A DNA stretch of 42,952 bases from Bacteroidales bacterium. Lineage in GTDB: Bacteria > Bacteroidota > Bacteroidia > Bacteroidales > UBA4181. Shown piece after piece: positions 614-11,033 of this stretch. The notes below the pieces were generated by a model that saw only the letters and a program-made list of their open reading frames with translations, did not search any database and was not told where the DNA came from. The position numbers and the translations under genes are program-made. The stretch lies in the NCBI GenBank assembly GCA_031275285.1, contig JAISOY010000058.1, positions 1 through 42,952 on the forward strand, written 5' to 3'. Position 1 is the stretch's first letter, and each line of letters starts with the position of its first letter.

Positions 614-2452
614 TTATTTCAGGCTTCCGAACTCTATTTCATCGGCGATACTCTCAAAAAGATCTATTTTTGTTTTCAGGAACAGGTCGCGGAATTTTGG
701 TGCATATTCTTTCGGGAATCGCGTCCATAAACCTGTATTTTTCAAACGATTTAAAGCGTAATAATAGGTGTTTTTCGGATATTTCTCCATGACAGAATAA
801 ATAATACTGAACCGGTCGGCAATTTCCCGTTCCATGATGAGCTTAAAAATGGTAACTTCTTCGGCAGGTGCAACTTTTGCAGCCAGATGAATCAACAATT
901 TATCGAACTTTTTGCTTTTCGGTTCAATGGCATTGATGAGTTGAAGCGCCTGATCGTATGCGTAATCCCATTTCATTTTGCCCGAGAACATATCGTACAG
1001 AAAATCCGTCCAGCGTGGATCGATCCTGTCGGTATATATTTCCACATCCTTATCGTTGTAATAATAAAAGTTGCTGCCGTTGCTGTACACGTCATACAGG
1101 TTGCTGACGCCGATCATTCCTTTTTTGAAGACATCGCGGAACGTTTTATACACCTTGTCCTTAGGATATCCTGATTCGACTGCGGAATAGAAATAATTAT
1201 TCCACAAAGGCGTTTTCCAGTTCTCGTCGGGAATATCGCCGATGTTCTTTTCATAAAAAGCTACGGCCGTGGCTTTGTTGAATGTATTCAGACTGCCGAT
1301 GATACTGTGGGCTACCGAGTAAGCATGGTTTTCGAGCAATGCTTTTTTGGCAGCGATCAATTGGCGGTATTTCTTGTTTTTCAACACGTCGGCAAAGAAA
1401 TTCAGCACATGATCGTTTTCCTTATTCTCAAAGACATCCAACAATGTTTTGAAACGATCCAGCTTTTCCATCAGTATTTTATCATCCGTCGATTTATCCA
1501 GCGCAATAAATTCCTCGAAAGCCACCGAAACCATGTCGTATACCTCGCGGAAAAAGAACGGGAGCTTCGACGTAGCTAATGCGGCAATAATAGCGGGCAG
1601 ATTGGTCTTGTTCTTGTTTTTCAGGTATATTGAAGTCAGTTTTTCAAGGCTTGTTTCGGTATTCAATTTTGCCAAAGCCATGTATGCGGCTTCGCGAACC
1701 AACTTATTTTTGTCGTTGGCAAGAGAAATGATGAGTGTTTCATTTTCGGGATTACCACTCAGGATATGAATCACTTCTGCCTGCAACAGGGGCAGCGGTT
1801 CGGACAATATTTTTTCCGTCATTGCTTTTATTTCCGTACAACCGAACCTGTTCAGCAACCTCAACCGCCGCACGTTTTCTGCTTTATCTTCATACGTAAA
1901 GTTCTGTAAAAGAAAAGGAAGCATCGGCATCCCGACCTTGGGAATAATGGTGTCGGCCACATATTCGCTCAGTTCCGAATATTTATCGGCCAACGCAAAG
2001 TCGAGGTACAGAAAGGTACGCGAGTCCTCGAAAATATTCCGTTCCAAAGCATCTTTAAGGATTTCCAACCGCCCCGAACTGGCAGTGGTCAACGCTTCTA
2101 TCACGGGTTTCAGTTGCAGGTACGAAAATACGGTGTTCACATTTCCGATATCGATACCTGGTACCTGTTCCTTTACTTCCACATCCACCTCCACCGAGTC
2201 GCCCTGTGTGTATAGCACGGAATAAAGCAATGTGGCAACGGACATTAATTTTTCCGCCGATTGTCGGCTGTCCGCCTGAATCAGGTCTTCGATGTCGCCC
2301 GAGAGTTTCTTGAAAACGGGCGCTTTTTCGCCCAGCTTGGCCAATATCGGGATATGTTTCTGCAAACGGGGATCGCCTTTGGCAAATTTGCTGCCTGCAA
2401 TGAACAAACGGTTAATATCCTGTTGAAGATCGTATAATGGTTGTAATCTCAT
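614..2452 (-). CDS. HEAT-like repeat protein of the MoxR-SWIM operon
   Basis: A 612-residue soluble protein with no signal peptide or membrane segment. It is built almost wholly of paired amphipathic helices; the clearest HEAT-like unit is near residues 225-290 (LVREAAYMALAKLN and neighbours). The family role is presumably a scaffold or substrate adaptor for the ATPase encoded 44 nt downstream; this is inferred from position only. It lies 86 nt after the SWIM gene and on the same strand, with no terminator-like hairpin between them, so the two are probably one transcript. I do not recognise a named enzyme domain. The start at 2452 is the first ATG and no closer alternative fits better. Confidence 0.75.
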   Translation of the reverse strand: MRLQPLYDLQQDINRLFIAGSKFAKGDPRLQKHIPILAKLGEKAPVFKKLSGDIEDLIQADSRQSAEKLMSVATLLYSVLYTQGDSVEVDVEVKEQVPGIDIGNVNTVFSYLQLKPVIEALTTASSGRLEILKDALERNIFEDSRTFLYLDFALADKYSELSEYVADTIIPKVGMPMLPFLLQNFTYEDKAENVRRLRLLNRFGCTEIKAMTEKILSEPLPLLQAEVIHILSGNPENETLIISLANDKNKLVREAAYMALAKLNTETSLEKLTSIYLKNKNKTNLPAIIAALATSKLPFFFREVYDMVSVAFEEFIALDKSTDDKILMEKLDRFKTLLDVFENKENDHVLNFFADVLKNKKYRQLIAAKKALLENHAYSVAHSIIGSLNTFNKATAVAFYEKNIGDIPDENWKTPLWNNYFYSAVESGYPKDKVYKTFRDVFKKGMIGVSNLYDVYSNGSNFYYYNDKDVEIYTDRIDPRWTDFLYDMFSGKMKWDYAYDQALQLINAIEPKSKKFDKLLIHLAAKVAPAEEVTIFKLIMEREIADRFSIIYSVMEKYPKNTYYYALNRLKNTGLWTRFPKEYAPKFRDLFLKTKIDLFESIADEIEFGSLK

Positions 2453-2538
2453 TTCAATTGATTATTTTTTATTGATTATTGAATATTGTCACTCAGACTA
2501 CTGGAAATAATTTTCCATTTTCAACTTTCCTTTTTCCA

Positions 2539-3981
2539 TTAATAAAACAGTCTGATGATTTTTTCCGATGTGATGAGTGACATGGGTTGTGCGGACAACA
2601 ATCCTGTAGCCACATCGTTGTTGACCATCACCAATAGCGACATGCCTGCTGGATTTGCCGGTAACATGGATTTCAGGTTGTTTTCGGCAGAAATATTCAG
2701 ACCTGTCATATCAATTAATGTAAGTTTGCTACCTTGCCCGTCTTCCACCACCAGATGTTCGCCGTTGACGTACACTTTGTGTAGGGCGAGCAACACGACA
2801 GGATTTTTATCCATCAGCGGATTTTTCATTGTATTTTTCACAGATTTGATGGTTTCGGCATAGTTTACCGATGCAAACGAATGTATGTTGGCCAGGTCGT
2901 CAGCATCGACTTTCCGTTCCTTCACCGATTCCTGCTCCCAGCGTATCCGTGGATTCTGGTCGCCCGGATAGATAAACAATTCCTTCAGTTGCAACACATC
3001 GAAGGCACTGTTGTCTTCCTTGATATATTTGGCAGCCCTGTATGGACGGTAATTCTTCGTTTTATAAATTTTCCCGTTTTTCAGATTGATCCAGGTGCCT
3101 TCGTCCACATATTCCCTGCGGGCGCGATTGTCGCTGCTGTTAAATGATAATTGTACAATTTCCGCGTTTTCCTCATAAAGTCCGTGTTGCATCAGTTCCG
3201 TCAGCTTCCACACATACCCGATCTGTTCCTCGATAGCGGAGTCGAGTTCGGGTGGTGCTTCGGGAGTTTCTTTCTTTTGACTGAGATATGCCCTGCCTTT
3301 TTTCAGCAAAACCGAGATAAAATTGATCTGGTTGATCACATCGGTGTACTCTTCGCCTGTTACATCGGCAAGTTCCAGCATCAGGTTGTTGAAGGCCGTC
3401 TGGACACCGTTGATGTAATAATTACCCAGTTCCTTGATTTGGCTGTTCAATGTCCGCGTTTCTTTGGCATCGACAGACGAAATCCCCGTCTGTACGATAT
3501 TTGCCAGGATCTTTTCCGCCATGTCGATACCAGAAAGCTGTACATCGATCTTTTTCGCCAAAGCTGCTGTGTTCACTTTCTTCGGCTTCGACGCTTTGGT
3601 CTTGATGTCTTCTTTTTCCTGTTCCTTCTTTTCCTGCTTTTTATCGATTTTTTCCCGTTTGGAAACAATATCGGCAGGTATTTCACCGCTTTCCGCGAAC
3701 GCCAATCCTTTTTCGTAAGCATACATCAGCCCGATAGCATGTTTACATGGAAACTGTCGACTGGGACAATTGCAGCGGAAGACGGGATTATTTTCATCGA
3801 CATAATCCGCAGAACAGGCGTAGGGATTTTTCCCGCTACCCGCACATTCACCCCAGATGAGTGTCTTGTCCGTCGATATTTTCAGATTGGAGAATTTATT
3901 TTTGGTAACCAGGTCGCGGCCGTTTTTGGCTGCACTTGCATTCGGAGCAAGCTCTTCGATTTTCTTTGAAGTGATTTCCAT
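2539..3981 (-). CDS. SWIM zinc-finger protein, YehQ-like
   Basis: 480 residues. The SWIM signature CxCx(n)CxH is seen as C70-N-C72 and C79-K-H81 (FRCNCPSRQFPCKH), a zinc-binding fold used for nucleic-acid or protein contact. A Lys/Glu-rich, probably coiled-coil linker follows at about 110-140. The C-terminal half (about 150-480) has no motif I know. SWIM proteins of this size occur beside MoxR and vWA genes (E. coli yehLMPQ), which fits the HEAT and MoxR genes downstream. The start at 3981 lies 137 nt after the last tRNA-like RNA (4118), and I see no TAnnTTTG promoter or T-tailed hairpin in that gap, so the mRNA may continue from the RNA array. Confidence 0.85.
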   Translation of the reverse strand: MEITSKKIEELAPNASAAKNGRDLVTKNKFSNLKISTDKTLIWGECAGSGKNPYACSADYVDENNPVFRCNCPSRQFPCKHAIGLMYAYEKGLAFAESGEIPADIVSKREKIDKKQEKKEQEKEDIKTKASKPKKVNTAALAKKIDVQLSGIDMAEKILANIVQTGISSVDAKETRTLNSQIKELGNYYINGVQTAFNNLMLELADVTGEEYTDVINQINFISVLLKKGRAYLSQKKETPEAPPELDSAIEEQIGYVWKLTELMQHGLYEENAEIVQLSFNSSDNRARREYVDEGTWINLKNGKIYKTKNYRPYRAAKYIKEDNSAFDVLQLKELFIYPGDQNPRIRWEQESVKERKVDADDLANIHSFASVNYAETIKSVKNTMKNPLMDKNPVVLLALHKVYVNGEHLVVEDGQGSKLTLIDMTGLNISAENNLKSMLPANPAGMSLLVMVNNDVATGLLSAQPMSLITSEKIIRLFY

Positions 3982-4117
3982 TGGTTGGTTCTTGTTGAGA
4001 ATAAGGTTCCGTTTTTAGAATGAAACTTCCATTATCGAAACATGAATTTTATACGTTCTTTTTCCCTGACAGGTTACAACAATGTGTAATGGCTATAGCA
4101 TATTTTGAAAATCACGT

Positions 4118-4315
4118 ATCCCCGATGAGATTCGAACTCACATTCCCCTTGCAGGGCAGTACGGCTCTAAATGCGCTTCCCTACTTACAAATGAATGTTT
4201 TCGGTGCTTCTGCAAAATCTACCCATACCAGCGCGCAGCCGATACGGGGATATCCATACACTCTACGGCACGATCAATCTTTTTCCGCAGGCTTTTCCTT
4301 TTAAGCTACGGGGAT
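4118..4315 (-). ncRNA. tRNA-like RNA C: class-II tRNA fold with about 120-nt insert in the anticodon loop
   Basis: Read on the minus strand this has a full tRNA skeleton in normal order. Acceptor AUCCCCG (4315-4309) pairs perfectly with CGGGGAU (4124-4118); U8-A9 follows; the D arm is GCUU/AAGC with GG in the loop; the anticodon stem is UGCGG (4289-4285) with CCGUA (4164-4160); an 18-nt variable arm contains CCC/GGG; the T arm is GUGAG-UUCGAAU-CUCAU. The anticodon loop is replaced by positions 4284-4165. That insert holds the UGCCGUAGA motif (4270-4262) also found in RNAs A and B, a bulged UCGUGC/GCACCGA stem and a hairpin repeating the 11-nt ATATCCCCGTA. No CCA is encoded. Hand-folded; it may be a functional Y-like RNA or a degenerate one. 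Confidence 0.6.
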
Positions 4316-4322
4316 ATATTAC

Positions 4323-4462
4323 AAAACAACAAGGTAACAAGCAAAAAGGGCGATATTTACTGAGCTACATCCTTGTAGATGATGAGAATCGAACTCACGC
4401 ACACCATTCTTTCGAACGGCCGCTCTACCATCGAAGTAACCCTTCTTTACGGCACTCGTTGT
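4323..4462 (-). ncRNA. Y-RNA-like, permuted tRNA mimic B
   Basis: An outer 8-bp stem ACAACGAG (4462-4455) with CUUGUUGU (4333-4326) encloses a 10/12-nt internal loop (UGCCGUAAAG opposite UUUGCUUGUUAC), an inner stem AAGGG/CCCUU and a 6-nt bulge UUACUU. Beyond that is a tRNA-like body in permuted order: second half of a D arm (GGUAGAGC), anticodon-like hairpin CCGUU/AAUGG, variable bases, T arm GUGAG-UUCGAUU-CUCAU, acceptor-like stem CAUCU/GGAUG closed by an ACAA tetraloop, UA, and the first half of the D arm (GCUCAGU). The Y stem thus emerges from the D loop. This matches the known plan of bacterial YrlA RNAs (Ro-binding stem plus tRNA-like module) and a Ro gene lies 3.4 kb away. Ends are defined by the stem only. 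Confidence 0.72.
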
Positions 4463-4468
4463 ATATTG

Positions 4469-4620
4469 AAAAACAAGGCGACAAGCGAAAAGAGACTATA
4501 TCCTGCTCTACCGTCTGAGCTACACTTCCGTTATTTTTGCAAAACAGGAAGTGACGGGAATCGAACCCGCGACCCGGGCAGTGGAAGTGCGAAGTAACTC
4601 TTATCTACGGCACTTGTTTT
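4469..4620 (-). ncRNA. Y-RNA-like, permuted tRNA mimic A
   Basis: Outer stem AAAACAAG (4620-4613) pairs with CUUGUUUU (4477-4470); inner stem AAGAG (4602-4598) pairs with CUCUU (4494-4490). Internal loops are 10 and 12 nt, as in RNA B, with shared UGCCGUA and GCUUGU. The far end fits canonical tRNA numbering but permuted: 39-43 UGCCC, a 5-nt variable loop, T arm GCGGG-UUCGAUU-CCCGU, 66-72 CACUUCC, a 17-nt closing loop, then 1-7 GGAAGUG (7/7 pairs), U8-A9, D arm GCUC-AGACGGUA-GAGC and 27-31 GGAUA. The Y stem takes the place of the anticodon loop. Compared with B, paired positions change together (A-U to C-G in the outer stem, A-U to G-C in the inner stem). No CCA is encoded. Likely YrlA-type Y RNA. 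Confidence 0.78.
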
Positions 4621-4656: not shown

Positions 4657-4680
4657 CAAAGTAAAAAGTGCGATGCGCAA
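4657..4680 (-). promoter_or_regulatory. Probable promoter of the tRNA-mimic RNA array
   Basis: On the minus strand TTACTTTG ends at 4657, close to the Bacteroidota -7 box TAnnTTTG, and a TTG lies at 4680-4678 inside the palindrome. RNA A would start about 35 nt downstream, after a small hairpin (AACAUC/GAUGUU). The TTTG lies 23 nt from the palindrome centre, against 24 nt at the Ro promoter. The box is one base off consensus. Confidence 0.5.
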
Positions 4681-4692
4681 TATTTTTGCGTA
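4674..4692. promoter_or_regulatory. Operator-like palindrome at the RNA-array promoter
   Basis: TGCGCAA-TATTT-TTGCGTA, an inverted repeat with 6 of 7 matching pairs and a 5-nt spacer. It is the same element as the perfect palindrome at 9460-9478 beside the Ro gene. It overlaps the upstream element of the RNA-array promoter. The WYL regulator at 10011-11033 is the obvious candidate binder, by inference. Confidence 0.65.
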
Positions 4693-4923: not shown

Positions 4924-5322
4924 TTATACGGCAAATGTTTCGGGTTCGCCGGTAAAAGAACTGATTGTCGCTGTTCCGCTTTCAAAATAGAGCACTTCGA
5001 AAATACCGTCATCAGCTTTATATATCGGTAAAGGAACCTGTTTCAGAAATTCCGCCCTTACTTCAGTGCGCGAATCGACTTTTACAATTCCGTTGATACG
5101 AAACCATTTATCCTCACCCAACAAGCCACTGATTTCTACTTTCGGATTTGCCTGCATTTGCCTGAATGATGGCTTTTTATTATTTGTACAGATATACAAC
5201 TTCCCATCAATTTCGGCAACAGCGCCATAAGGACGTACACGAGGCTGATCACCGTCTATCGTGGCGATATAAAAAACTTTACTCTTCTGTAATAATTCTA
5301 CTGCTTTGTTCATCATATTCAA
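4924..5322 (-). CDS. Pyridoxamine 5'-phosphate oxidase-family flavin protein
   Basis: 132 residues, about the normal length for small split-barrel FMN proteins. The opening (KVFYIATIDGDQPRVRPYGAV) is the typical first strand and turn of this family, followed by LYICTNNKKPSFRQMQANPKVEI, which usually forms the FMN phosphate site. Members bind FMN or heme and act as small oxidoreductases; the substrate cannot be told. The start may be any of the clustered Met codons at 5322, 5316 or 5313. A -7 box lies 36 nt upstream and a terminator follows at 4746-4774, so it is a single-gene unit lying between Ro and the RNA array. Nothing in it suggests an RNA role. Confidence 0.85.
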   Translation of the reverse strand: MNMMNKAVELLQKSKVFYIATIDGDQPRVRPYGAVAEIDGKLYICTNNKKPSFRQMQANPKVEISGLLGEDKWFRINGIVKVDSRTEVRAEFLKQVPLPIYKADDGIFEVLYFESGTATISSFTGEPETFAV

Positions 5323-5357
5323 TATTTAATGGGTTTGCTGTAAATCCTGTCTCCAAA

Positions 5358-5365
5358 CAAAAATA
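5358..5365 (-). promoter_or_regulatory. -7 box TATTTTTG of the pyridoxamine-oxidase-like gene
   Basis: Perfect TAnnTTTG on the minus strand, about 36 nt before the first start codon at 5322. No clear -33 TTTG at the usual distance. Confidence 0.55.
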
Positions 5366-5475
5366 CATATTTTCTGCCAATATCACGGAATCGTAAATCG
5401 AAGGGGAAAAATATCTCTCAAGATTGTGTTGACAATCCCAATTAAAGTTTAAAGTTCAAGATTCAAGATTAAGTG

Positions 5476-5495
5476 AAACGAAACCCGTTTCGTTT
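5476..5495. promoter_or_regulatory. Near-perfect palindrome AAACGAAAC-CC-GTTTCGTTT
   Basis: Two 9-nt arms separated by two bases in the 311-nt gap between 5322 and 5634. Its dyad shape suits an operator better than an RNA hairpin. It lies about 110 nt upstream of the -7 box at 5358 and just past the terminator at 5506-5544. The rest of the gap shows no ORF I can support. Confidence 0.4.
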
Positions 5496-5505
5496 TGATT
5501 GTTTG

Positions 5506-5544
5506 AAAAAAATAGGAGATCGTCCTTGCATGAACAATCTCCTA
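5506..5544 (-). terminator. Rho-independent terminator of the InlB-repeat lipoprotein gene
   Basis: On the minus strand TAGGAGAT (5544-5537) pairs with ATCTCCTA (5520-5513), loop 16 nt, followed by seven T. It stands 90 nt after the stop at 5634. Confidence 0.85.
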
Positions 5545-5633
5545 TCCGTTAATAATTTATGTTTTACAATTCCCGGTTAATATTGTCACTGGAATTTACA
5601 CTATCGTTTTTACCAGACGCCCTTTACTGTTGG

Positions 5634-7589
5634 TTATGTTCCGGTAAGATCGTACCACTTCAACGGCCCCCGGTATGTTCCCTTCACTTTACCGTCATTT
5701 TCGAGCATACAGTCTACCGTGATAGTGTAAACCGCGTCATCGCCCGTTCCCGTAACTGTTACCTTTACCGTCCCGCCGGTCATTTTAAGCTTGTTGCCAT
5801 CAGCATCCTGTACATAGCTTGTGTAGTCGTTGTCCACGAAAGTGTACGCGACAGCAGAAGTTCCGGCCGTACCGAATGTATATGTCCCTGCAACTAACCT
5901 GTTCCTGCCGTCGGGAACCAACATATCGAGCGCGATCCATTCACCGTATATCGTGGTTAAACCTATAAATACATTTTCGGTAGCAGCGTTGAAGAAATGA
6001 CCCCAGTAATCCATTCCTCCGCGATAGGGATGCAAGGTTTTGCCATTCGCTTCGAACCGGTTGAGTCTGACTCCATCGGCAATCTCAATATTCCTCTCGA
6101 TATGAATACTGTTTCCAAAACTACCGGTCTGCGTAAAAGTTTCTCCTGTGAAAGTACCGTAGTGATTATCTCCAGCCGGACTATACAAAGCCGCTCCGAA
6201 GCTACCCATTGCAGTAACGCCTATAACTACCGAATTGCAGTTATCGCGTATATTCAAATCACCTGAATAGTGTTCCGGCAAATCGATGACGTTTCCGTGT
6301 ATCCAGTCGTATCCGGTAATTCTGCCGCCGCTCATGTAAAAATCTCCTCCTGAGTTATATACTCCGCCGCCGCGTGCGCCCGAACTCGCCGCCCAGGCTG
6401 TATTGCCGAAAATATTACCGCCTTTCATAGTAAAGCGTGCAAAAAGATCCACATATACACCACCACCCTGGCCGTAAACTTTGTTTCCGCTGATATTACC
6501 GCTTACCATAATTAATTCACCAAAGTCATCTACCCATATGCCGCCACCATGACCGTTCGTTGCACTGGCAGTTCCGGAAACATTACCAACGATTTCACCG
6601 CCATCCAAAATGAGTTTACCACCCACATCCACGCCTCCGCTACCACCGGCGGTGTTGGTATTTCCGGTAATAACGGCTCCGTTCCCAATGACCAGTTCTC
6701 CGGTCTTCACACAAAGTACCGCCGCGTTATTGCTGGGATGACCTTTCAGAACAATGTCTTCCAGCACGATTTTTTGTGATACAGATGCAAGATAAATCAG
6801 ATATCCCCTTTTGTCGGTTGTTACACTTATTTCCGGGGCAGGACTGCCCTGTCCTTTGATGGTTACCGCAATATCGGTCAACTCTTTGGTAAATAACGTA
6901 GTAGTACCTACCCCCGGAAGACTGAAACTTTTGGTAACAGTAAAGGTATGTGTTTTATTGTTACCGGCAGTGTTGACAGCATTCACGGCGGCATTCCATT
7001 CCGCTGCACTGCTTATGTTGTGGTTGACAGAAGAAGGATCGCCGCCGCTGTTTTTCCACTTAGCGTAAAGGATAAAGTTACCTGTCACGGTGCTTACATC
7101 ATAAGGGAAAGTGATTCTATTGGTAAAATCCGCTTCCTTGTACCAGCCTTCAAAAGTATCGTCAGATTTGACGGGAACAGCAGGCTCGGCAAGTGTTCCG
7201 CCTTTTACCACACGGGACACATGGTTATCTTCCGAAGGCCATTTGCCACCATTCAACTCCCAGCTAACCTGCCAGTATTCGGCAGCTGATTCGTCTTCCC
7301 ATCGGGCATAAAGTGTAATGTTCCCAATTACAGGTGTCTGGAAATTATAAGCCGTTTTTACACCATCCAGGTACCAGAAAAGAAATACATAACCTGTTTT
7401 AACCGGATTTACATTCGGTGCAACAGCCATATCACCGGCTTTCACCTGTTGGACGGAAGGACTGGGGCTGCCGCCATCTGTGTCGAAAGTAACTGTATAA
7501 ACCGTTTCATCTTCGGAATCGTCCTTCGATGAGCAGGAAACAAACCCTAATAGAATGCTTATTAATATGATGATCCAAATATTCTTCAT
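5634..7589 (-). CDS. Surface lipoprotein with InlB-type repeats and beta-helix
   Basis: 651 residues. A signal peptide ends in a lipobox (LLGFVSC, Cys19) followed by SKDDSEDE, typical of surface-exported Bacteroidota lipoproteins. Two InlB B-repeat/Listeria-Bacteroides units follow at about 30-93 and 105-178 (VTFDTDGGS, TLYARW; WELNGGKW, LYAKW). Residues 200-430 carry Gly-rich turns of right-handed beta-helix type (GGGIWVDDFGELIMVSGNISGN and repeats), and the C-terminal 150 residues are beta-rich and unassigned. It is probably a surface adhesin or binding protein; no catalytic motif is seen. It has its own promoter (7624-7654) and terminator (5506-5544), so it is not co-transcribed with Ro. 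Confidence 0.85.
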   Translation of the reverse strand: MKNIWIIILISILLGFVSCSSKDDSEDETVYTVTFDTDGGSPSPSVQQVKAGDMAVAPNVNPVKTGYVFLFWYLDGVKTAYNFQTPVIGNITLYARWEDESAAEYWQVSWELNGGKWPSEDNHVSRVVKGGTLAEPAVPVKSDDTFEGWYKEADFTNRITFPYDVSTVTGNFILYAKWKNSGGDPSSVNHNISSAAEWNAAVNAVNTAGNNKTHTFTVTKSFSLPGVGTTTLFTKELTDIAVTIKGQGSPAPEISVTTDKRGYLIYLASVSQKIVLEDIVLKGHPSNNAAVLCVKTGELVIGNGAVITGNTNTAGGSGGVDVGGKLILDGGEIVGNVSGTASATNGHGGGIWVDDFGELIMVSGNISGNKVYGQGGGVYVDLFARFTMKGGNIFGNTAWAASSGARGGGVYNSGGDFYMSGGRITGYDWIHGNVIDLPEHYSGDLNIRDNCNSVVIGVTAMGSFGAALYSPAGDNHYGTFTGETFTQTGSFGNSIHIERNIEIADGVRLNRFEANGKTLHPYRGGMDYWGHFFNAATENVFIGLTTIYGEWIALDMLVPDGRNRLVAGTYTFGTAGTSAVAYTFVDNDYTSYVQDADGNKLKMTGGTVKVTVTGTGDDAVYTITVDCMLENDGKVKGTYRGPLKWYDLTGT

Positions 7590-7701: not shown

Positions 7702-7868
7702 CGGGGATTTAATTGACATTAAAAAGAAGTATATTTCTGAAATTCAATAAAGTAAACAATAGGTCATTTTTTTCATTAAAAAAGTTTTGTGGAGTGACAT
7801 ACGTATAGGGTTTTTAGAGTGACAATCTGAAGTATCCCTTTACTACGACATCCACAAAACTTCTTAAG

Positions 7869-9392
7869 CTACAATTCTATTTTCCGGATTTCGTCCAGCG
7901 CATTACCACCATTATCGATGGCGTCAACGATGTCGAAAATCTTATCCGACCAGCCTGCGATCAGGTACACATCTTCGCGGGTGATATCCAGCGGAGTGGT
8001 ACCGTAGCCCGAAAGGTCAAACAGGTGCAGTTTACTACCGGGAGAAATTGTTTTATAGGTATTCCACAAGCTGGAAATCTTCTCGTCGTTACGATTGTTC
8101 CACAACTGACAATCGGTAAATACCATTACCTTATCCACTGCTTGTTTACACCTGATCAGGTCACTGATCACCAGATAACCGTTGGTGGAATATCCGACTT
8201 CACCTTCGCGGCGGTAGAATGCATCTACATTGGCAAGAATACCCCGGGTCGGCACATTGATCACTTTCCAGGTATCACCGAACATACCCGTGATGGCATT
8301 TTTGCAACGCGATTTCAAAAGCATGGCCAGCATCAGCCCGATATCATACGACAATATCTTGCTTTTCGGCGATATGGCTTTTTGCATTGAACCCGAAACA
8401 TCACAGGCGATCAAAACCTTCGTATCATTATCGAACCCTTTGATGTTTCCGGCTGAAATACTGACAGCCTTTTCCAATGCATCCATTACATTGCCGGCAT
8501 CTCCCGATTTTACTTTCGATATTTCACGGTAAGCCGCAAGGAAGCGGAATGGCAACTGTTTCGAACGGCGAACGGCTTCGGCATCCGACAGGATTCCACA
8601 TACTTTCGTAATGTGCTGCTGCGATACTTCCGTTTCCAGGATATTACGCAGGTTTCGCATCAAGGCCATATAGCCGATTTTCCCGCTGTCGATCAACTCT
8701 TCCCACTTCATGCGGAAAGCGACATTCTTTTCTTTATCACTCGCATATTTAGTCTGTCCGAGCATCGACAACTCCGTTTCCCAGGTATACGGTGTTTCGA
8801 GCATATCATTGATGATTTTGTCGAACAACATTTGTTGCGCATCATCCTTCGATTTCGGATGGACCAGAAACAAGGCATCACGCAGCTTGATCTCCGCATC
8901 GCGGTTATATTTGGCAAACTGGTATTCGTCGAAACGGTTGAACGCTGCCTGCAAACCTGCCTGCAGCTGTTTCGACAGATGGTTCAGTTTTTTCGTACCC
9001 TTCCGCTCGTTGGCAAACTGATAATAAGCCAGCAATTCGGTGATTTCATCGGCACGTTGTATGATCCGTGCTACCATCTTTTTCACGGTCGAATCGCCCT
9101 GATGTACCTTTGCCAATTCTACGGCCAGCACCAGGGGTATGGAACGCAGGTTCATCTGCTGGCGGGTGTACACCGCAAGCTTTGCCACAAACACGGGATC
9201 GCATTGTACAATCAGCCGGCGCAATGTTTCGATGCGTGTCTGCGCACCTTCATAAAACTTGTCACCCAGCGAAGAGGTTACAGCTGCAACATATAATTGC
9301 CATTCAGGCGACAAGCGGTATGCTTCCGCTCCTTCGTAATTTGTCACCTTACTTTTTCCTTTGGTTACATAATTAAACTTCATCTTATTCAT
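7869..9392 (-). CDS. rsr: Ro60 ortholog (TROVE + vWA), Rsr
   Basis: 507 residues, close to known bacterial Rsr and to human Ro60. Residues about 10-310 form the helical TROVE ring, with the typical RIETLRRL, AKLAVYTRQQMNLRSIPLVLA and QQHITKVCGILSD segments. The C-terminal vWA domain keeps the MIDAS motif D331-V-S333-G-S335 (IACDVSGSM) and a later VFTDCQLW. Ro proteins bind misfolded RNA ends in the ring hole and Y RNAs on the outer face, and in bacteria help exonucleases degrade or mature rRNA. A second ATG at 9383 (MKFNY) could be the true start. It is divergent from a WYL regulator across a perfect palindrome, and Y-RNA-like genes lie 3.2 kb downstream with the same palindrome. Family call is firm. 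Confidence 0.95.
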   Translation of the reverse strand: MNKMKFNYVTKGKSKVTNYEGAEAYRLSPEWQLYVAAVTSSLGDKFYEGAQTRIETLRRLIVQCDPVFVAKLAVYTRQQMNLRSIPLVLAVELAKVHQGDSTVKKMVARIIQRADEITELLAYYQFANERKGTKKLNHLSKQLQAGLQAAFNRFDEYQFAKYNRDAEIKLRDALFLVHPKSKDDAQQMLFDKIINDMLETPYTWETELSMLGQTKYASDKEKNVAFRMKWEELIDSGKIGYMALMRNLRNILETEVSQQHITKVCGILSDAEAVRRSKQLPFRFLAAYREISKVKSGDAGNVMDALEKAVSISAGNIKGFDNDTKVLIACDVSGSMQKAISPKSKILSYDIGLMLAMLLKSRCKNAITGMFGDTWKVINVPTRGILANVDAFYRREGEVGYSTNGYLVISDLIRCKQAVDKVMVFTDCQLWNNRNDEKISSLWNTYKTISPGSKLHLFDLSGYGTTPLDITREDVYLIAGWSDKIFDIVDAIDNGGNALDEIRKIEL

Positions 9393-9441
9393 TTTAATGG
9401 TTAAAAGCCTCTTACGACACTCTTTTTCCTGTTTGACTTTA

Positions 9442-9466
9442 CAAAGATTTCAATGCAGGTACGCAA
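9442..9466 (-). promoter_or_regulatory. Probable promoter of the Ro gene
   Basis: On the minus strand AATCTTTG (9449-9442) resembles TAnnTTTG, and TTGCGTA from the palindrome (9466-9460) lies upstream. The TTTG is 24 nt from the palindrome centre, almost as at the RNA array (23 nt). Leader to the ATG at 9392 is about 40 nt. Confidence 0.5.
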
Positions 9467-9478
9467 CGTTTTTGCGTA
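9460..9478. promoter_or_regulatory. Perfect operator-like palindrome between Ro and WYL units
   Basis: TACGCAA-CGTTT-TTGCGTA: 7-bp perfect inverted repeat with a 5-nt spacer. It overlaps the -33 box of the plus-strand promoter and the upstream element of the Ro promoter, so one bound protein could control both. The related copy at 4674-4692 points to a shared regulator, probably the WYL protein. Confidence 0.75.
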
Positions 9479-9517: not shown

Positions 9518-10027
9518 ATGGAAGATAAAATTGTCATTCCTGTCAGCAAAGCAAAGATCATTCAGTTGTTTGCAGGTGCCGCTTTATTTGTACTTGCAGG
9601 GATTTGGATACTTCTGGATCCGCAATTCGGAATATTTCAGAAAATAATTGCATCCGCCTGTATTTTGTTTTTCGGAATTGCCATGATCATATTTCCCCGA
9701 AAATTATTCGATAACACACAAAATCTGGTTATCGACAGGTACGGTATTACCGACAATATTACCCGACCCAGAGCGGGTACCATTGAATGGAATGACATCA
9801 CACATGTGGAAATTACCAAAATTTCAGGTAATAAAATGCTGTTGATATTTGTTATAGATCCCGAAAAATACCTGAGTCGTGTTAAGGCAAAGGGACTGAG
9901 AAATAATTACTATATGGCAGGTACTCCCTTTGTTATTCCCTCCTCGATGCTGAAAATAAAACTGAACGATTTGGAATCACTGATCAATACAGGAATAAAA
10001 GAATACCATCATGCCTGTAAACCGTAA
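9518..10027 (+). CDS. STM3941-family membrane protein
   Basis: 169 residues. Two membrane segments (about 13-32, FAGAALFVLAGIWILL, and 38-57, IIASACILFFGIAMIIF) are followed by a beta-rich cytoplasmic domain of about 105 residues (WNDITHVEI, LLIFVIDPEKYL, GTPFVIPSSMLKI), the plan of the STM3941 family, whose soluble part resembles a PH-like domain. Molecular role is unknown. Its 3' end overlaps the WYL gene by 17 nt, implying translational coupling, so a membrane signal could feed the regulator; that link is inferred. Confidence 0.75.
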   Translation: MEDKIVIPVSKAKIIQLFAGAALFVLAGIWILLDPQFGIFQKIIASACILFFGIAMIIFPRKLFDNTQNLVIDRYGITDNITRPRAGTIEWNDITHVEITKISGNKMLLIFVIDPEKYLSRVKAKGLRNNYYMAGTPFVIPSSMLKIKLNDLESLINTGIKEYHHACKP

Positions 10028-11033
10028 TGCATTAATCCGTTATAAAACCATCGATACCTGTTTACGCAACAGGTTCCGTCAATGGACGCTCGAAGACCTG
10101 ATCGATGCATGTTCCGATGCATTGTATGAATACGAAGGAATCGACAAAGGCATCAGCAAACGTACCATCCAGATGGATATCCAGATGATGCGCAGTGAAA
10201 AACTGGGATACAATGCGCCCATCGTGGTTTACGACAACAAGTTTTATAAATATGACGATCCTGATTACAGCATTACCAATACGCCATTGTCCGAAAAGGA
10301 TCTGAAAGTGATGTCGGAAGCCGTTGAAGTTTTGCGGCAGTTCAAAGGATTCTCGTATTTTTCGGATATGGGAGATATTGTAAGCCGGCTGGAAGACCAT
10401 GTTACTTCGGCACGAAAGAAAACAGTCCCTGTGATTGATTTTGAAAAGAACGAAAGCCTGAAGGGGTTGAACTATCTGGATACGGTTTATCACGCTATTG
10501 TCAACAAACAAGCGCTACACATCAAATACAGGTCGTTCAAAGCCCGTTCCGCAAGCAATTTTGTTTTCTATCCGTACCTTCTGAAAGAATACCGTAACCG
10601 CTGGTTTGTTTTCGGGACAAAGAAGAAACACGAAACCCTGATCAACCTGGCACTTGATAGGATACATCACATAGAGATCGCAGAGGGGGAATATTACGGG
10701 GAAAATAAGCTCTTTGATCCTGTCACCTTCTTCGATGACCTTGTCGGTGTGACTAAAAATACCGGTATGAAAGCCGAAAAAATTCGTTTTTGGGTAGACA
10801 GGCAGAATGCTCCCTATGTGCAAACCAAACCTTTCCATAAAAGCCAAAGACTGATAGAAACACAAGAAGACGGCGCCATGGTTTTTGAACTGGAAGTAAT
10901 CATCAATCAGGAACTGCAACGGGAGTTTTTTGGTTTTGCCGATACCATCAGAATATTATCACCACCATCACTGGCAGATTTTATGGCATGGAAATATAAA
11001 GCGGCAAAGGAAAGGTATGAAATCCGTTCTTAA
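10011..11033 (+). CDS. WYL-domain transcriptional regulator
   Basis: 340 residues. An N-terminal winged-helix region (about 1-85; GISKRTIQMDIQMMRSEKLG is the recognition part) precedes a WYL domain at about 155-240 (LNYLDTVYHAIVNKQALHIKYRSF, then YLLKEYRNRWFVFGTKKK) and a WCX-like C-terminus ending around FGFADTIRILSP. WYL proteins bind nucleic-acid or nucleotide ligands and control DNA-damage, RNA-repair and defence genes. Its gene overlaps the preceding membrane-protein gene and is divergent from Ro. It is the best candidate to bind the palindromes at 9460-9478 and 4674-4692. Family call firm; ligand and target are inferred. Confidence 0.9.
   Translation: MPVNRNALIRYKTIDTCLRNRFRQWTLEDLIDACSDALYEYEGIDKGISKRTIQMDIQMMRSEKLGYNAPIVVYDNKFYKYDDPDYSITNTPLSEKDLKVMSEAVEVLRQFKGFSYFSDMGDIVSRLEDHVTSARKKTVPVIDFEKNESLKGLNYLDTVYHAIVNKQALHIKYRSFKARSASNFVFYPYLLKEYRNRWFVFGTKKKHETLINLALDRIHHIEIAEGEYYGENKLFDPVTFFDDLVGVTKNTGMKAEKIRFWVDRQNAPYVQTKPFHKSQRLIETQEDGAMVFELEVIINQELQREFFGFADTIRILSPPSLADFMAWKYKAAKERYEIRS

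Follow-up and report, generated by a model that had tools for sequence, protein, structure and literature searches.

Tandem RNA genes beside a Ro gene of Bacteroidales: predicted Y RNAs with rearranged tRNA bodies and a separate tRNA-like RNA

The DNA analysed here, called the window throughout, is a contig of 42,952 nucleotides (JAISOY010000058.1) from a Bacteroidales bacterium, and its central features are an rsr gene, a divergent gene for a WYL-domain protein, and several small RNA units on the strand of rsr (Table 1). Units 1 to 3 lie in tandem, beginning 3.2 kb downstream of rsr, with units 2 and 3 at 3.2-3.5 kb. A sequence-only reading of this region had described three T-arms and three D-arms on the minus strand that add up to no ordinary tRNA gene, and both statements held: the three T-arms, three D-arms and acceptor strands were found within 4114-4620, and ARAGORN called 0 tRNAs across the whole window. 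Absent from that reading was a fourth unit, unit 0, located behind rsr; the run of T that follows it (window 7775-7858, minus strand) could double as the rsr terminator. A second array, consisting of two units, is found elsewhere in the same genome directly in front of rtcB (PF01139, E 7.4e-56). Rfam returned nothing over its cut-offs in the window, and matches to the tmRNA covariance model were confined to units 2 and 3, at 9.2 to 20.5 bits, all below the cut-off. A scan for consensus sigma-70 promoters gave 13 matches, compared with 10.9 expected.

Table 1. Features of the rsr locus and its RNA units, in window coordinates
Feature	Position	Strand	Score or sequence
Unit 3, predicted Y RNA, YrlA-like	4469..4620	-	module score 79; RF02553 35.9 bits, E 5.9e-6
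Unit 2, predicted Y RNA, D-loop-grafted design	4325..4462	-	module score 71
Unit 1, tRNA-like RNA with extra multibranch domain	4114..4316	-	model R1 208.8 bits (own seed member)
Unit 0, short hairpin with the Ro module and no tRNA guest, immediately 3' of rsr	7785..7858	-	module score 45
rsr, Ro60 orthologue (TROVE; vWA-like part)	7869..9392	-	PF05731 E 1.9e-32
Palindromic operator-like site upstream of array	4674..4692	-	TACGCAAAAATATTGCGCA
Same palindrome upstream of rsr	9460..9478	.	TACGCAACGTTTTTGCGTA
WYL-domain protein, putative regulator, divergent from rsr	10011..11033	+	PF13280 E 5.4e-14

The structural relatives of the rsr protein are PDB 9l5y, 9kop and 2nvo, and a match to PF25045 reached 22.2 bits, below the cut-off of 27.7. 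Two TROVE proteins, 9l5y and 9kop, are the nearest solved relatives and are closer by sequence than the Deinococcus Rsr (2nvo). Of 295 genomes of the order searched for Ro, 3 gave a match, including the genome of the window, and the set of Ro relatives used below is the best 80 of 379 encoding stretches from GTDB genomes. The leader of rsr (window 9408-9421, minus strand) contains AGTGTCGTAAGAGG, which resembles one half of the Ro module described next and may serve self-regulation.

In units 0, 2 and 3, the 5' and 3' ends form a helix that carries a conserved module, and this stem is the predicted Ro-binding site. The closure of two tandem units by their own ends, as the sequence-only reading had it, was borne out, since units 2 and 3 each form every scored pair (outer stem, 6 of 6; inner stem, 5 of 5). 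To scan 82 sequences, we used a position matrix that also scores pairing and was trained on the first regular-expression matches in the same loci; the sequences were the window, L006, the distant Ro locus L007 (Ro 36% identity) and 79 of the 80 loci of the relative set; L019, which is the L006 contig, was dropped from the unit counts. The scan found 315 units, an approximate figure since some of the 83 guests classed as 'other' below are two units run together, compared with a single one when all 82 sequences were shuffled by a first-order Markov model, and that sole match scored between 22 and 24, against the values given for units 2 and 3 in Table 1. The preceding regular-expression scan had given 236 units versus 1 in shuffles. 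At the 81 rsr loci (L007 set aside), at least one unit was found in 78, at least two in 71, at least three in 60 and at least five in 28, with a maximum of nine; arrays accompany rsr in relatives, and a three-unit array, which had been thought unusually elaborate, is not exceptional among these loci. No unit was found in L024, L041 or L072, and looser thresholds added one in L072 and none in L024 and L041; the distant locus L007 had no unit, looser thresholds included. The units share the strand of rsr in 311 of 315 cases, and 281 of 315 lie within 3 kb downstream of it.

Covariation of the module was computed on 177 non-redundant copies. The six scored outer-stem pairs are formed in 79-97% of copies, with mutual information of up to 1.2 bits and up to six pair types, and a C stands at position 2 in 176 of the 177 copies, where it is required by both the pattern and the matrix; because the loci were picked for rsr, the matrix was trained there and the scan rewards pairing, these pair rates and the constancy of the C are biased in favour of the model. 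Pairs outside the scoring also covary, being formed more often than expected both next to the outer stem (position -8, 69% paired versus 42% expected; position -9, 59% versus 44%) and at inner-stem positions 6 to 8 (88%, 85% and 80% versus 66%, 57% and 46%).

The association of the module with rsr was also assessed in a sample of 395 Bacteroidota genomes, 27 of which have rsr. The exact 5' motif occurs in 16 genomes, that is, in 13 of the 27 with rsr compared with 3 of the 368 without it (Fisher p 1.4e-14), and a reversed-pattern control matched 2 genomes; in this strict form the motif is missing from 14 of the 27 rsr genomes. The three motif genomes without rsr are G544, G568 and G656. In G656, which has no rsr match, tandem copies of GCCGTAGAGACGCGATACTTCG at mostly 68-base spacing (G656:C22:35028-35604) look like an unrelated palindromic repeat.

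The surroundings of the units were compared in the rsr loci. A palindrome of the form TACGCA-N7-TGCGYA occurs with zero mismatches at three sites only in the genome, before rsr, before this array and before the second array; within the window, 2 matches with up to 3 mismatches were found versus 0.05 expected. Of 11 relatives scanned with one mismatch allowed, 9 (L006 and L009-L016) have it at a distance of 65-94 bp upstream of the rsr match, and it was not found upstream of rsr in L017 and L018; in L011, L013 and L016, it also precedes separate units or rtcB. Relatives of the WYL protein are found in 42 of 81 rsr records and candidate relatives of RtcB in 34 of 81, with L019 counted beside L006 and many contigs short; three of the RtcB relatives are 80-81% identical to the query, and the other 31 of 34 are 24-31% identical. 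Adjacency to rsr makes the WYL protein a putative regulator, and the common palindrome together with the WYL gene suggests a regulon, which could be switched on. HEAT-repeat and SWIM zinc-finger genes lie directly behind the array (window 614-3981), and PNPOx and repeat-domain (List_Bact_rpt) genes lie between rsr and the array (window 4924-7589). These four kinds of gene were tried as members of the system and rejected, as they have no relative in the 81 rsr records; in L006, the array stands directly 3' of rsr with no intervening genes.

Within its Ro stem, unit 3 has, in this order, a T-arm, the first acceptor strand, a linker, the second acceptor strand and a D-arm, and the acceptor strands form a helix of 7 bp (GGAAGUG/CACUUCC). 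When aligned to the YrlA family (RF02553), it shows the T-arm, acceptor and D-arm inside the stem and no anticodon arm. A permissive search gave 35.9 bits (E 5.9e-6) for unit 3 and 17.6 bits (E 1.2) for unit 2, both under the curated cut-off of 69, and unit 1 gave no match; the expected likeness to YrlA was recovered for unit 3, below the family's threshold. YrlA itself is described as a stem for Rsr joined to a tRNA-like domain, the circular permutation of YrlA relative to tRNA is already published (PMC11472068), and an operon of Salmonella is reported to unite rsr, Y RNAs and rtcBA. The present units share with YrlA of the Salmonella rsr-yrlBA-rtcBA operon the end-formed stem, the permuted order of T-arm, acceptor and D-arm, the position adjoining rsr and the repair-operon setting; they differ in the low RF02553 score of unit 3, in the up to nine units per locus, in a second design that retains the anticodon arm and has the stem in the D-loop, and in the WYL gene as neighbour. 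The kind of RNA is an already known one, the bacterial Y RNAs. Vertebrate Y RNAs, too, have an end-formed helix with an unpaired C, a feature that the units here may share; in contrast to the units here, they are not known to have a tRNA-like body.

The sequences enclosed by the stem, here called guests, were assigned to classes by simple patterns, which gave 100 YrlA-type, 15 D-loop-grafted, 40 T-arm-only, 29 GGGG...CCCC-type, 48 short and 83 other guests (n = 315). Of the 262 guests that are 44 nt or longer, 215 have a T-arm. Among the 98 YrlA-type guests with both ends found, 70 form at least 6 of 7 acceptor pairs, compared with a mean of 6.2 and a maximum of 12 when the 3' strands were dealt to other units in 200 deals. 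Guests of 60-180 nt (n = 228) were then closed into circles after removal of nine inner-stem letters, and 69 of 228 were read as tRNA, versus 1 in linear form and an average of 0.0 over ten shuffles. The guest of unit 3 was called a tRNA in the circular mode of ARAGORN. In the YrlA-type calls, the anticodon arm arises at the closure point, and 25 of the 69 calls are 'tRNA-???', with no clear identity. Counted from the 5' end of the tRNA, the opening point of the 69 lies at 28-42 nt in 55, at 16-25 nt (the D-loop) in 6, at 45-47 nt in 7 and at 8 nt in 1. These data bear on the proposal that the units arose by the decay of tRNA genes or by misassembly of a tRNA cluster, for which the lack of an intact tRNA in the window could be cited. 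One linear tRNA among 228 guests, permuted acceptor pairing far over the control, covarying stems, and the finding that units 1 and 3 are conserved in records from other genera all argue against decay, which the covariation already contradicts, and we regard this explanation as extremely improbable.

Unit 2 represents the second design, in which the Ro stem encloses, in order, the 3' half of the D-arm, the anticodon arm, the T-arm, the acceptor and the 5' half of the D-arm. The stem is grafted onto the tRNA at two different points in the array, the anticodon region in unit 3 and the D-loop in unit 2. The acceptor of unit 2 forms 5 of 7 pairs, and ARAGORN did not call the unit a tRNA in circular mode; among all 15 D-loop-grafted units, 7 form at least 6 of 7 acceptor pairs. 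Fourteen units of this class were aligned (A3; L052 omitted); the alignment has 93.4% of cells paired and two-sided changes in 20 of 26 pairs, and it exceeds all 500 shuffles on all five measures; the varying pair of the D-stem is A-U in 7 and G-C in 7. The class was chosen by D-arm patterns, and the T and anticodon stems, which were not selection criteria, nevertheless covary. Several D-loop-grafted guests retain anticodon loops with U33, for example CUUAUAA and UUCGUAA.

Two further explanations of the array were considered. The units could be circularly permuted tRNA genes, in which case cleavage of the precursor RNAs in the acceptor linker, followed by ligation, perhaps through RtcB, would yield replacement tRNAs. 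Such genes are known from other organisms (PMC3978253), and the units resemble them in having the 3' half before the 5' half and a linker between the acceptor strands; the circularised guests read as tRNAs, the U33 loops and the RtcB relatives near 34 of the 81 rsr genes all fit. However, the ends of the array units make a Ro-type stem, most units, the YrlA-type guests among them, have no anticodon arm, and fewer than 6 of 7 acceptor pairs are formed in 28 of 98 YrlA-type and 8 of 15 D-loop-grafted guests, so that we consider replacement tRNAs a very unlikely product. Alternatively, the guests could form a library of decoys, tRNA look-alikes that bait tRNA-attacking nucleases or toxins, with guest diversity reflecting several targets. 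The tRNA bodies do differ among guests, U33 loops are on offer in several of the D-loop-grafted ones, and competitive nuclease inhibition is named as a possibility for YrlA by Hughes et al. 2020 (PMC7790460); however, the anticodon arm is missing in most guests, and the same article reports that YrlA fragments were not detected while tRNAs were cut. We judge a decoy role unlikely, less so than replacement tRNAs.

Four long guests (L032:13007-13230, L042:9184-9386, L011:8907-9121 and L010:16565-16778) hold a 23S-like stretch, which we take to be the H71 region of 23S rRNA. Exact words in common with the 23S rRNA of L101 extend to 19 letters in L032, to 13 in L042 and to 11 in L011, and the longest one in L010, of 14 letters, lies elsewhere; given these word lengths, the stretch is clear in L032 alone. 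That the four guests mimic 23S rRNA throughout was rejected, as the short stretch alone matches (11.6 bits, E 0.022, with a best shuffle E of 0.19, for a profile that also included guests of L065 and L070 caught by the same short word).

Unit 1 is a different RNA. Its acceptor, D, variable and T arms are accompanied by a long-looped arm of the anticodon type and by an extra multibranch domain; the big insert that had been claimed for the remaining unit of the array is present as approximately 110 nt in place of a plain anticodon arm. No Ro module was found in it at standard or looser thresholds, and for this reason unit 1 is not classed as a Y RNA. The earlier suggestion that the whole array consists of Y RNAs survives for units 2 and 3, in which a Ro-type stem that recurs beside rsr phylum-wide surrounds a tRNA-like body, and not for unit 1, which is a conserved RNA of its own. 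Rfam gave no match to unit 1 up to E 10, and relatives were found in ten other loci, the seven longest matches being 69-80% identical over 184-197 nt. In an alignment of nine sequences, the structure, which was derived from the same alignment it was scored on, has 45 pairs, 28 of them with two-sided changes (shuffle mean 13.2), and 96.3% of cells paired; on four of five measures the alignment lies above every one of 500 shuffles, and on the fifth it lies above all but one, while slid versions of the structure drop to 37-43% paired. Unit 1 would represent a new family of RNAs built on a tRNA body. A tmRNA likewise combines a tRNA-like domain with a large structured insert; unlike a tmRNA, unit 1 has no Rfam match. 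The idea that the insert imitates domain II of 23S rRNA has been rejected, as the insert profile was unmatched in the two 23S-bearing loci searched and its best match was to a shuffle.

The covariance model built for unit 1 (R1) was searched in 83 sources and gave 60 matches, 11 of them full-length (at least 116 bits), of which nine are its own seeds. Across the 395 Bacteroidota genomes, R1 had matches in 213, and among the matches listed, full-length ones (at least 178 bits) occur in 4 genomes, the window's own included; the other matches listed reach up to 42 bits, and many are approximately 77 nt long, the length of an ordinary tRNA. Two of the 4 full-length genomes, G381 and G385, have no rsr match at E <= 1e-20. 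Unit 1 could then be an RNA partner to the WYL regulon, not to Ro, and might for instance sense tRNA-processing enzymes; in G381, the copy of unit 1 lies near a WYL gene, and the acceptor, D and T arms of the RNA are complete. The copy in G385, however, has neither a WYL gene nor rsr in the 14.5 kb covered, and although we lean against a WYL partnership, we hold it the most plausible of the alternatives considered here. Unit 1 is, in any case, a part of the locus.

Altogether, we read the array, with a probability of about 0.6, as two Y RNAs, each with a stem predicted to hold Ro and a rearranged tRNA body that would dock tRNA-handling enzymes, accompanied by a separate tRNA-like RNA. Rows of such RNA genes beside Ro genes across Bacteroidota likely serve RNA repair. 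Ro would clamp the constant stem of the units, and the projecting tRNA elbow might recruit an elbow-recognising enzyme, by analogy PNPase as in Deinococcus, which would in this way reach the damaged or misfolded RNAs that Ro carries. The WYL protein could turn on rsr, the arrays and rtcB together after RNA damage, RtcB would reseal the RNA that can be salvaged, and through different guests a single Ro would be able to attach several partners. As guests vary widely and most have no anticodon arm, one common partner would be a guess. The model for this scheme is the Rsr-Y RNA-PNPase machine of Deinococcus radiodurans (RYPER), in which the Rsr-Y RNA complex is reported to direct PNPase onto structured RNA; a Ro protein with a tethering RNA is common to both, and the present loci differ in having several RNAs with tRNA bodies. 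A bolder version holds that one Ro displays interchangeable mimics of structural RNAs on a standard stem, within a regulon that coinduces RtcB and with the unit 1 family encoded alongside. The displayed set would comprise T-arms on their own, tRNAs interrupted either in the anticodon region or in the D-loop and, for one locus or more, part of a 23S rRNA; taken as a whole, we find this version doubtful, somewhat less so than the decoy library, and the narrowing of the clear 23S match to L032 lowered its odds slightly.

The purpose of the tRNA part of bacterial Y RNAs has been little studied, and according to PMC7790460, the function of bacterial Y RNAs has been studied in Deinococcus only. Arrays in which the Ro stem is constant and the tRNA body and its opening point vary offer a ready-made test set. 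No description of arrays this large, of D-loop grafts or of unit 1 turned up in searches of open-licence papers, and other Y RNA papers may cover part of these. Lupus sera are reported to pull down Ro60 particles of Bacteroides thetaiotaomicron, Y RNAs included (PMC11277228), which makes the Bacteroides particles medically interesting and indicates that Y RNAs of some design are made in Bacteroidota. Ro-like proteins are also encoded in 97 phage records, 20 of which are named as Bacteroides phages.
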